From the NCBI RefSeq assembly GCF_000760095.1, contig NZ_JNAR01000016.1:124001-188000 (forward strand): 64,000 bases of DNA. The letters are read 5' to 3'. Under the pieces are notes generated by a model, which did no database searches, had not been told where the DNA came from, and saw only the letters and a list, made by a program, of their open reading frames with translations. This document shows positions 5,415 to 53,922 of this stretch, one piece after another; position 1 is the first letter of the stretch; the number at the start of each line of letters is the position of its first letter. This DNA comes from Prochlorococcus marinus str. MIT 9401. GTDB lineage: Bacteria; Cyanobacteriota; Cyanobacteriia; PCC-6307; Cyanobiaceae. Both the position numbers and the translations under genes were made by a program.

Positions 5415-5669
5415 ATGACCTATTGGGATAAAGATACTATTCAGCTTGTTCAAAGTCTTAATGACAAATTAAAGATTGATCATTCTAAATGGCATAAAGA
5501 TAAAGGAAATAAATTTAAACGATCTGCAGAACTAATTTCGGCGGGATTATGCCATTTAATTATTTCTAGTAATGAGAAGGAAACTATTGAATATATAGAA
5601 GAAAGTATTAAATGGTTAAAAGAAATAAACGTAGATCAACCTTGTCCTAGTAAAAAATCACCTTTTTAA
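5415..5669 (+). CDS. Small conserved cyanobacterial protein of unknown function
   Basis: This is an 84-residue soluble protein with no signal peptide or membrane segment. It is predicted to be mostly helical, with a central RSAELISAGLCHLI stretch and a C-terminal PCPSKKSPF tail. It starts 12 bp after the methyltransferase gene and probably shares its transcript. Its last 12 bp overlap the 3' end of the convergent RsbW-like gene. I recognise the general look of a short, conserved cyanobacterial family but cannot assign a function. Confidence 0.7.
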   Translation: MTYWDKDTIQLVQSLNDKLKIDHSKWHKDKGNKFKRSAELISAGLCHLIISSNEKETIEYIEESIKWLKEINVDQPCPSKKSPF

Positions 5670-6092
5670 TGCCAACTGAAGCCTATTACCTTTACTACTC
5701 CATCTAATATCATCAAAACATTCATTAATAATGTATAATCCTCGGCCATTTACACTACTTAATTTTTTGGGTAATTTGTAATCCCTTTTTTTTATTTCTA
5801 AACCATTACCTTGATCTTGAATTTGCCAAACACACCAATTTGGAGTAATTATTCTTCTTACTCTAATATTTTTTTTGGGATCTAATTTATTTCCATGTTT
5901 TACTGCGTTAACTAGAGCTTCATGTAAACCAAGTTTTATAAGATAGCTTGATTGAGAATATTTAATAGGTTCTAATAATTGATCGACGAATTCATTTAAC
6001 TGTAATGATGATTCGAATTCGTAGTTTGACCAGTTAATATTTGGTCTTTTAAAAAATTTTTTTAAAATATTTTTGCCCCGAAATAAGGACAT
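5658..6092 (-). CDS. RsbW/SpoIIAB-like anti-sigma regulatory factor (HATPase_c)
   Basis: This 144-residue protein is a lone GHKL ATPase domain of the kind found in serine kinases that bind sigma factors or STAS-domain anti-sigma antagonists. The N-box is HEALVNAVKHGN (residues 57-68), the G1 box is DQGNGLE (93-99) and the G2 box is GRGLYIINECFD (116-127). There is no histidine phosphorylation domain, so it is not an ordinary sensor kinase. A STAS protein with the conserved serine is encoded at 30065-30430 and could be its partner; this is inference. It is convergent with the gene at 5415-5669. Confidence 0.85.
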   Translation of the reverse strand: MSLFRGKNILKKFFKRPNINWSNYEFESSLQLNEFVDQLLEPIKYSQSSYLIKLGLHEALVNAVKHGNKLDPKKNIRVRRIITPNWCVWQIQDQGNGLEIKKRDYKLPKKLSSVNGRGLYIINECFDDIRWSSKGNRLQLALKR

Positions 6093-29669: not shown

Positions 29670-30068
29670 TTAATTTATTTTAATTTCAAGGAATTCAAAA
29701 AGAGTTGACAGTCTTTGAGGATCTTTTAGAAATAGCCAACCTATAAGAGTTTCAAAGCCAGTTGCTCTTGAATAAATGGTCGGATCAGAAGACTTTGGGA
29801 ATCTCTTTATTTTATTTCTAGCACGCCTAATCAAATCGATTTCAATTGGATTTAGTAAATGTTCAATTTGACTTAAGGATTTTGATTGAGATTTTGCTTT
29901 CACTTCATTTACGACCGATAAATGGAGTTCTTTTGATTTTAAAGGTAAATGAACATATCTCAGTCTTTGATGAAGTTCCCATACCGAATCCCCAAGCCAC
30001 GCAAGTTGAATAACACCTATTTCTTCAGGTGATCCATATGGAACCAAGTTTTGAATCCAATAATTCAA
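29670..30068 (-). CDS. mrnC: Mini-ribonuclease III
   Basis: Mini-III is a ribonuclease III catalytic domain without a double-stranded RNA-binding domain; in known cases it matures 23S rRNA ends. The 132 residues show VIQLAWLGDSVWELHQR, which contains the catalytic Asp of the RNase III signature, and SRATGFETLIGWLFL with the second acidic site. The start is a TTG at 30068, which overlaps the TGA of the upstream STAS gene (TTGA), so translation is probably coupled. The next gene downstream, rlmB, also acts on rRNA. Confidence 0.9.
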   Translation of the reverse strand: MNYWIQNLVPYGSPEEIGVIQLAWLGDSVWELHQRLRYVHLPLKSKELHLSVVNEVKAKSQSKSLSQIEHLLNPIEIDLIRRARNKIKRFPKSSDPTIYSRATGFETLIGWLFLKDPQRLSTLFEFLEIKIN

Positions 30069-30430
30069 TTTTTAAAATAAGTTAATGCATCTTCAAGACA
30101 GGACTTTAAATTAAGAAAATCTCCTAAACGTACAAGTTTAATTGTTTGAGCAACTCTTGAATTACCAACAACTGAAAAACCTATCTTCAATTTTTTACAT
30201 TCTTTAGCAGTCTGGACGAGAGCTCCAAGACCTGAAGAATCAAGAAAATCAATTTTTGTAAGATCAATAATGAAAGGAAATTCATTTTTTATGTTATTAG
30301 AGACAAAAGTCTTAAATTGTTTTTCTGAGAAGGCATCGAGTTGGCCTTTAAAAGTAAAAACAGTAACATTTGATCTTACATCGAGGTTTCCTCTTAAGGA
30401 GACCGTTAGCTTTTGGAAATCTTCTATGAT
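30065..30430 (-). CDS. STAS-domain anti-sigma-factor antagonist with an AUC (or AUA) start codon
   Basis: A 121-residue STAS domain protein is encoded here: LTVSLRGNLDVRSN, TFKGQLDAFSEKQF, then IIDLTKIDFLDSSGLGALV with the conserved serine (Ser65/Ser66) that a partner kinase phosphorylates, and VRLGDFLNL near the end. An in-frame TAG (30431-30433) comes immediately before codon ATC at 30428-30430, and no ATG, GTG or TTG occurs in frame until after the domain core. A GGAGGG ribosome site ends 5 nt before the ATC. The best start is therefore a non-standard AUC, or the following AUA. The 3' end overlaps the mini-RNase III start. The frame is clearly coding; only the start codon is uncertain. Confidence 0.85.
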   Translation of the reverse strand: MIEDFQKLTVSLRGNLDVRSNVTVFTFKGQLDAFSEKQFKTFVSNNIKNEFPFIIDLTKIDFLDSSGLGALVQTAKECKKLKIGFSVVGNSRVAQTIKLVRLGDFLNLKSCLEDALTYFKN

Positions 30431-30491
30431 CTAAACCCTCCAAAAAATAAATGTTTCAAATGTAATTATCAAATCAAAAGAAAACAATATG

Positions 30492-31631
30492 TCAACATCT
30501 TTCTAACATTAGAGAAACAAATTTTTTAAATAAATAATCTGAATCATGGGGACCAGGTCCTGCTTCCGGATGATATTGAACACTGAATATTGGTTTATTA
30601 TAAACTTCTAATCCAGCAACAGTCTTATCGTTAAGATTAAAATGAGTTATTTTTACAGTATCGTCAGATAGGGTATTTGGGTCAATAGCAAAGCCATGAT
30701 TTTGACTAGTAATCTCGACATTCTGATTGATTCCACAAGGGTGATTTAGTCCACGATGTCCAAATGTGAGTTTATAGGTTGAACCTCCTAAAGCCAATCC
30801 AAATATTTGATGACCAAGGCAAATACCAAACATAGGTATCTTACCGTGATCAATAAGTAATCTTGCTAAATCTATACCTTCAGAAACAGAGGATGGATCA
30901 CCTGGACCATTTGAAAAGAATATGCCATCAGGCTTATGCGATAGAACGTCATTAAAAGAAGAATGTGAAGGCAAAACTAAAATTTCACAACCATGGGAGA
31001 CTAGTCTATTTAAAATTGATTTTTTAATTCCAAAATCAATAGCTACCACTTTTAATTTACGAGGATTTTCGTAACATCTTTTTCTAACGTCAAAAACAGT
31101 TTCTGTAAGATTTCGCCATAAAAATTGTTTTTTTGTTGAAACTACTTTTGATAAATTTAAACCCTCCATTTTTGGAATTTCATGTGCAATTTTTAGGCAA
31201 CTTTCTAGAGTTATGTCCTCGGAGGTTAGGACTCCATTCATCGAACCATTAGATCTTAAAATTTTAACAAGCGCCCTTGTATCAATTCCATAAAGACCTA
31301 CTATATTTTTTTCAACTAACCATTGATTAAGATTTTTTAAAGATCTCCAATTACTATTATTGGACGAATAATTTCTAACAATTATTCCCTTAACATTTAT
31401 AGTTGATTCTGAATCTTCTAGATTGATTCCAGTATTTCCAATTTCTGGATAAGTAAATGTTAATATTTGACCGTAGTAACTTGGATCAGTAATAACCTCC
31501 TGATATCCTGTCATTCCAGTATTAAAAACTATCTCACCAACAGCAGTACCAGTAGCTCCAAAAGAAAATCCCGGGAATATTATCCCATTACTCAAAACTA
31601 ATTTTGCATTTTTTTTGTAGGGATTATTCAT
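30492..31631 (-). CDS. carA: Carbamoyl-phosphate synthase small subunit
   Basis: CarA is the glutaminase subunit that supplies ammonia to CarB for carbamoyl phosphate (arginine and pyrimidines). The 379-residue protein has the N-terminal domain ([21 protein letters not shown]) and a class I glutamine amidotransferase domain with the catalytic Cys in [15 protein letters not shown], then the His in [14 protein letters not shown]. The ATG overlaps the trpD stop by 4 bp, so trpD-carA form a coupled pair, the usual order in marine picocyanobacteria. Confidence 0.97.
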
Positions 31632-53348: not shown

Positions 53349-53543
53349 TTAAGCAGCTAATGATTCGTTATCTTTAATTTCAGTTTTATTGATACGCTTC
53401 AAATCTATAGAATTAAACAAATGTTGCATAACCAGAAAATCAAGTTCCCCTTTCAACAAATCAAAATCTGATGAGAGTAGATCATCAACAAAATCATCAA
53501 AAGTATCTGAAAGAGGATTCACAATTAAAATTATTTTTGACAT
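53349..53543 (-). CDS. Small acidic protein of unknown function
   Basis: From the ATG at 53543 it encodes 64 residues, starting MSKIILIVNPLSDTFDDFVDD; ATGs or alternative starts up to 53570 would add up to nine residues. The protein is acidic and Leu/Asp-rich (DDLLSSDFDLLKGELDFL), with no membrane segment. It is followed on the same strand by the 36-residue frame. No family recognised. Confidence 0.5.
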   Translation of the reverse strand: MSKIILIVNPLSDTFDDFVDDLLSSDFDLLKGELDFLVMQHLFNSIDLKRINKTEIKDNESLAA

Positions 53544-53922
53544 TATCATCGCATTAAAAACAAAAGTCAACCAAATTTGAATATTTATTATTGAATTTTT
53601 TAAAAAATAATGAATAAAAACTAAAAAATTAAATAATAAAAATAAACAAGAAAAATAACAGATTTAATATCAAGCTTAGGGTTTTTGAATTAAATTTCAT
53701 TTATTTAGCTTTTCTTAATTTTATATCTCTCCTGATTAGCAATATCAAAACGACAATACACATATTTGCTAAAAAGAAATTTAAAGAATTCATCATCAAA
53801 CCATTTAATATATTTATAGCAAGACTATTGATGTGCCAATTAGTAAAGAATCACTTAAAAATTTTTAAACACAATAAATTTTTATAGCAATCAAATTTGA
53901 TATTAATAATTAATTTTAAATA
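53544..53922. other. 379-bp AT-rich gap with one possible tiny gene
   Basis: Very AT-rich sequence with no long frame. Its only coding candidate is the 31-residue minus-strand frame at 53701-53796, listed separately. No terminator hairpin, tRNA or repeated motif was seen. Confidence 0.5.
53701..53796 (-). CDS. Possible 31-residue membrane peptide
   Basis: An ATG-to-TAA frame: MMNSLNFFLANMCIVVLILLIRR, then DIKLRKAK. One hydrophobic helix with a basic end fits a membrane peptide, but nothing else supports it, and such frames arise by chance in AT-rich DNA. Confidence 0.28.
   Translation of the reverse strand: MMNSLNFFLANMCIVVLILLIRRDIKLRKAK

Follow-up and report, generated by a model that had tools for sequence, protein, structure and literature searches.

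Near-cognate codons initiate translation at a fraction of the rate of AUG and are rejected by the initiation factor IF3. Starts of the AUU, AUC or AUA type (hereafter AUH) limit the translation of infC (AUU or AUA) and of pcnB (AUU), and infC, which begins with AUU in E. coli, uses its AUH start for autoregulation by its own product. The near-cognate starts of both genes are cited in a report that also covers two S. aureus genes, ccpN, whose AUA start gives about 10-30% of the AUG yield, and cvfC1, which starts with AUU (PMC13009471). Both carry an extended Shine-Dalgarno (SD) sequence, and their output is about a tenth to a third of that of AUG (PMC13009471). The Streptomyces sigma factor gene sigR has a GTC start that is repressed by IF3, and a canonical codon in its place unbalanced the switch in which SigR takes part and in which the amounts of the partners matter; this start follows an extended SD, is conserved across Streptomyces, was mis-annotated, and is not seen in other actinobacterial genera (Feeney et al., PMC5472188).

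In Synechocystis, the anti-sigma factor antagonist Ssr1600 is phosphorylated by the kinase Slr1861, frees the sigma factor SigC and limits growth, and suppressors that lose most Ssr1600 regain growth in high CO2 (Kurkela et al., 2025, PMC12329169). TTG is stated there as the Ssr1600 initiation codon, and in the overexpression strain, where this TTG was changed to ATG, Ssr1600 was raised and growth slowed in high CO2 (PMC12329169).

The gene that we describe lies on the minus strand of a stretch of 64,000 nucleotides from Prochlorococcus marinus MIT 9401 (the window). It is preceded by carA (30492-31631, minus strand; TIGR01368, 6e-145) and followed by a gene with a Ribonuclease_3 domain (29670-30068, minus strand; 6e-20, no NCBIfam match), which we name mini-RNase III (mrnC) from its size and domain, and then by an rlmB-type methyltransferase. 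Its product is matched by Pfam STAS (PF01740, 2.9e-17) over residues 16-115 of 121, the STAS domain being the whole protein, and by the anti-sigma factor antagonist family TIGR00377 above the cut-off (62.2 bits). Among proteins of solved structure, the product is most similar in sequence to TM1442, RsfB and SpoIIAA, and the DSSG phospho-serine motif is invariant in 13 of 13 aligned rows. These are the features of a stand-alone anti-sigma factor antagonist of the SpoIIAA/Ssr1600 type, as which the protein is predicted to act. The gene is single-copy and the only stand-alone STAS gene of the genome, two other STAS matches lying in frames of over 500 codons.

Counted from an ATA at 30427-30425, the STAS frame (30065-30427) has 120 codons (121 from the ATC before it) and ends with a TGA at 30067-30065; at its start the minus strand reads TTTTTT GGAGG GTTTAG ATC ATA GAA GAT TTC CAA AAG CTA ACG GTC TCC TTA AGA GG. 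The sequence-only reading of this stretch had noticed a gene without a standard start codon, an in-frame TAG (30433-30431) directly before the ATC at 30430-30428, a GGAGGG ending 5 nt ahead of this ATC, and an overlap of the 3' end with mini-RNase III, and we find all four as described. The first in-frame canonical codon is a TTG at 30190-30188, two thirds into the frame, with no earlier ATG, GTG or TTG, and the STAS stop and the UUG start of mini-RNase III share the TTGA at 30068-30065. This is no chance feature of long frames: when the window is divided into non-overlapping stop-to-stop frames of 90 codons or more, 68 in all, just this one and one other are without ATG, GTG or TTG in their first quarter. 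The other late-start frame (53349-53663, minus strand) has its first canonical start at 30% of its length.

We examined 285 loci, 80 from genome contigs and 205 from genome searches, of which 256 are distinct over 300 nt. The searches gave matches in 122 of 149 relatives, in 270 of 300 family genomes and, with a profile search at 1e-25, in 113 of 244 genomes of the phylum, while the start-codon counts cover the fetched loci only; as so many relatives and family genomes match the frame, we take it to be a real gene. Among the 20 listed of the 131 phylum genomes without a match, 19 lie outside the class and one (G535), 99% complete, belongs to the same class and has no STAS orthologue (best match 2.2e-12). 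Loci were placed in genus-type, other family and other class groups by N-terminal motif in a script and not by taxonomy. Of the six peptide patterns used, one spans the start residues and brings a slight bias towards isoleucine there; the other five do not.

At the homologous place, the start codon is ATA in 139 of the 256 distinct loci, ATT in 88, ATC in 28 and CTG in one, and in none is it ATG, GTG or TTG. AUH is therefore kept in 255 of 256 loci from genus to class, with ATA in all 100 genus-type loci, ATC (25), ATA (24) and ATT (11) in the other family loci, and ATT (77), ATA (15), ATC (3) and CTG (1) in the rest of the class. These counts include L240, L269 and L284, which have small indels close to the start and were aligned manually on the AUH codon next to the SD; without this adjustment they would read AAC, AAT and TAG. 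A further locus outside the 256 (L326) reads ATC. The sole orthologue with CTG at the start place is L271. On a FastTree protein tree built from about 120 residues, with the start residue left out, the start codon changed at least 22 times, and none of these changes led to a canonical start. A fresh ATG-to-ATC change or a sequencing error, both of which the sequence-only reading had kept in view, is rejected by these data, since all 256 distinct loci, drawn from many assemblies, have a non-canonical codon at this place and no ATG was seen in any of them; the chance that an error or a recent ATG-to-ATC/ATA mutation in MIT 9401 accounts for the codon is negligible.

AUC or AUA had both been proposed as the start, and the genus-type loci favour the second. 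The AUA at 30427-30425 is unchanged in 100 of 100 distinct loci, against ten replacements of the AUC at 30430-30428 (GTC 4, AAC 3, ACC 3); in the first 110 loci, a redundant set, the second codon is always ATA and the first is ATC in 102, AAC in 4, GTC in 2 and ACC in 2. A pyrimidine pair, mentioned for cyanobacterial starts (Belinky 2017, PMC5622118), occupies positions -2 and -1 before ATA in 97 of 100 loci and before ATC in one, and precedes the homologous start codon in 244 of the 256 distinct loci. The GGAGG at 30437-30441, 9 nt before the AUA, keeps a distance of 8-10 nt from it in 99 of 100 loci. Downstream of ATA, third positions vary and first and second positions are nearly fixed, leucine codons apart, while upstream there is no codon pattern, the spacer length shifts by 1-2 nt, and the frame is closed by TAG or TAA at 30431-30433 in 80 of 100 loci. 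Taken together, the invariance of AUA, the pyrimidine pair, the placement of GGAGG and the coding signature after ATA identify AUA as the start codon and the ATC as part of the spacer. An AUC start, or use of both codons, would agree with the presence of ATC in 90 of 100 loci and with the GGAGG 6 nt ahead of it, a spacing nearer the usual optimum; yet ATC is lost where ATA never is and lacks the pyrimidine pair, and other family loci mostly have CCC, GCC, CTC or TCC in its place, with AUH at the place of ATA. We have for the most part rejected AUC as the start, and consider its use in Prochlorococcus quite improbable.

An inner control is given by the other conserved isoleucine codons of the genus-type group. 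The codon of Ile-1 is ATA in 94 of 94 sequences, whereas those of Ile-59 (ATA 60, ATT 33, ATC 1), Ile-54 (ATT 82, ATC 5, ATA 4, non-isoleucine 3) and Ile-96 (ATT 87, ATC 4, ATA 3) drift, which argues that the codon itself, beyond isoleucine, is kept. Outside the gene, carA serves as a control: of 160 loci, 154 carry ATG at precisely the homologous position, and the remaining six (ATA 3, ATC 1, AAA 1, AGC 1) have a canonical codon at a distance of 1 to 9 codons. Applied to the STAS gene, the same scan leaves 140 of 256 loci, including 89 of the 100 genus-type loci, with no canonical codon up to 10 codons from the AUH. Two counts speak against the AUH reading: 116 of 256 loci do have a canonical codon within 10 codons, at offsets that are scattered between loci and, in the family group, most often as a leucine TTG at codon 4 or 7 (42 of 60), and 66 of 256 frames meet a canonical codon before a stop when extended upstream without limit. 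On the lack of a canonical codon, the coding signature and the SD distance, the gene nevertheless has the characters of one with a conserved near-cognate start. Since ATA becomes ATG by one transition, since switches of start codon towards AUG are more frequent than those away from it (Belinky et al., PMC5622118), and since AUG is absent here, selection appears to act against AUG at this start. The weak start kept by every examined relative suggests that low production of the antagonist is deliberate.

The AUH frame also bears on Ssr1600 itself. When the 20 published Ssr1600 residue positions (PMC12329169) are shifted by six and compared with the 96 other class loci, all 20 fit in 14 loci and the mean is 16.9 of 20, against 3.6 at the next offset. 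This numbering, used in place of named Synechocystis DNA, points to the STAS gene as the orthologue of ssr1600. Because of the offset, the published TTG start would be codon 7 of the AUH frame, and Synechocystis probably has an AUH codon six codons upstream of it, although the account of the cascade takes the TTG inside the frame and, in the sections consulted, has nothing on AUH initiation (PMC12329169). With ATG placed at codon 7, the published construct would begin six residues late and lack the native start; as it works, a shorter Ssr1600 form would be functional, and such a form may be made in loci with TTG at codon 7. Apart from its statement as initiation codon (PMC12329169), the presence of TTG at codon 7 in 40 of 256 loci would agree with translation from this internal leucine codon throughout, the AUH remaining unused. 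Codon 7 is, however, TTA, CTA, CTT or GTT in 99 of 100 genus-type loci and TTG in one, and we rejected it as the start in Prochlorococcus; moreover, the first 60 codons are free of any canonical start in 67 of 256 loci, codons 2-6 evolve as coding sequence, and the SD lies 9 nt before the AUA. An internal start in place of AUH is accordingly very improbable. Nakamura et al. 2024, cited in PMC11863333, is said to be a study on PmgA and Ssr1600. A comment on Synechocystis proteogenomics does not name ssr1600 in the sections consulted (PMC13339759).

A GGAGG is unusual in the window, where it precedes a canonical start near the beginning in only 1 of the 67 other long frames. The pairing of a strong SD with a poor start codon is shared with S. 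aureus ccpN and cvfC1 (PMC13009471) and with Streptomyces sigR (PMC5472188). The spacing from SD to start is 9 nt in genus-type and most family loci and 5 nt in most other class members, so that a single spacing rule fails, and we found no RNA structure in the start region beyond that of shuffled sequences (z +1.08). At the other end of the gene, the TTGA (30065-30068) in which the STAS stop overlaps the UUG of mini-RNase III is present in all 100 genus-type loci and in 46 of the 60 other family loci. In the rest of the class, TTGA, ATGA or GTGA is found at the STAS stop in 43 of 96 loci, and a Prochlorococcus query, which may have missed some cases, identified mini-RNase III downstream in 51 of 95. 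The AUA of the STAS gene and the UUG of mini-RNase III are two weak starts in tandem, possibly translationally coupled. With a Prochlorococcus query, carA was found upstream in 99 of 99 genus-type, 59 of 59 family and 61 of 96 class loci, and this last count makes it unlikely that carA translation is required; we rejected a dependence on it.

We consider it likely that a deliberately weak and probably IF3-sensitive AUA start holds the antagonist at a low level compared with its kinase. The perfect SD and the pyrimidine pair would place the 30S subunit on the AUA, where the initiator tRNA can pair with two of three bases; initiation would be slow and open to rejection by IF3, so that synthesis of the protein would reach only part of the rate given by AUG. 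As the antagonist is expected to bind the anti-sigma kinase and free a growth-limiting sigma factor, an amount below that of the kinase would leave the sigma factor bound unless signals dephosphorylate the antagonist, and the UUG-started mini-RNase III, overlapping the stop, may share this throttle. Tuning of expression through weak initiation, already put forward from the sequence, fits the conservation of the start. The low ratio of antagonist to kinase proposed here is the argument that Feeney et al. make for sigR, which likewise combines a non-canonical start with an extended SD in a component of a sigma switch; there the codon is GTC and sits on the sigma factor itself, and IF3 dependence was shown, whereas the STAS AUA is likened to it from its sequence (PMC5472188).

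The weak start might also be a fixed volume knob, with a low output set by near-cognate pairing and no signal passing through IF3, and to this we give somewhat less than an even chance. The conservation needs nothing beyond a low and constant output, the AUU of S. aureus cvfC1 was without effect of the medium (PMC13009471), and stress-induced derepression of sigR could not be shown by Feeney et al. (PMC5472188). Against it, a fixed low level is also obtainable with a weak SD, whereas here a perfect SD is combined with a weak codon, an arrangement that would leave codon discrimination as the controlling step.

Besides the STAS gene, the genome has one match to PF13581 (HATPase_c_2, RsbW/SpoIIAB-type) and one to PF07228 (SpoIIE-type/PP2C phosphatase), and these candidate partners make up the minimal set for a partner switch. 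The sole PF13581-type anti-sigma kinase match (5658-6092, minus strand; domain at G000:C16:129673-129942) lies in the same window, 24 kb from the STAS gene. In one genus of the family, g48, none of the seven genomes tested (G156, G211, G238, G261, G280, G296 and G310) has a STAS orthologue or a match to mini-RNase III or PF13581 above the cut-off. Among three g98 drafts, a kinase is retained in two that have neither the STAS gene nor mini-RNase III, and both genes occur in G258 (77% complete), whose sole PF13581 match lies in a 516-codon frame. Co-loss of the STAS gene, mini-RNase III and the kinase is therefore partially supported.

A further reading, which we regard as possible but doubtful, is that, through its AUH start, the antagonist reports on the state of translation initiation, which in cyanobacteria would be an ancient link from ribosome status to a growth-limiting sigma factor. 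If so, a fall of free IF3 relative to 30S subunits would raise ssr1600-type output, free the sigma factor and cut growth, and the output of the coupled mini-RNase III, with its role in 23S rRNA maturation, would follow. Such a link would stand in place of the infC autoregulation that is apparently missing in MIT 9401. The sequence-only reading made a comparison with infC that suits the type of start, but infC in MIT 9401 (L286) has a frame that begins with ATG; the classical IF3 loop seems absent, and we rejected infC as a parallel AUH gene here. In other cyanobacteria, 16 of 29 parsed infC loci (L291-L320, one unparsed) have a Met codon in the N-terminal stretch, and the rest GTG, TTG or an unresolved start.

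Near-cognate starts that limit translation are already known, and what stands out here is the depth of conservation, from genus to class as against within a genus. The published cases that we found are single ones or conserved within a genus or family: the cvfC1 start is reported as conserved among Staphylococci, not across a bacterial class, and the functions of the S. aureus genes are other than that of the STAS gene (PMC13009471). We found no paper in the open-licence PMC literature that reports an AUH start of an ssr1600-type gene. If our reading is right, it would explain why gene finders restricted to ATG, GTG and TTG would truncate or miss the Prochlorococcus gene, it would correct the N-terminus of a gene under active study, and it would offer a ready test of IF3-controlled expression in cyanobacteria. 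The organisms concerned do much of the photosynthesis of the ocean, and in them one regulator has kept AUU, AUC or AUA, with no AUG seen, as part of a switch that would set growth according to carbon and light.
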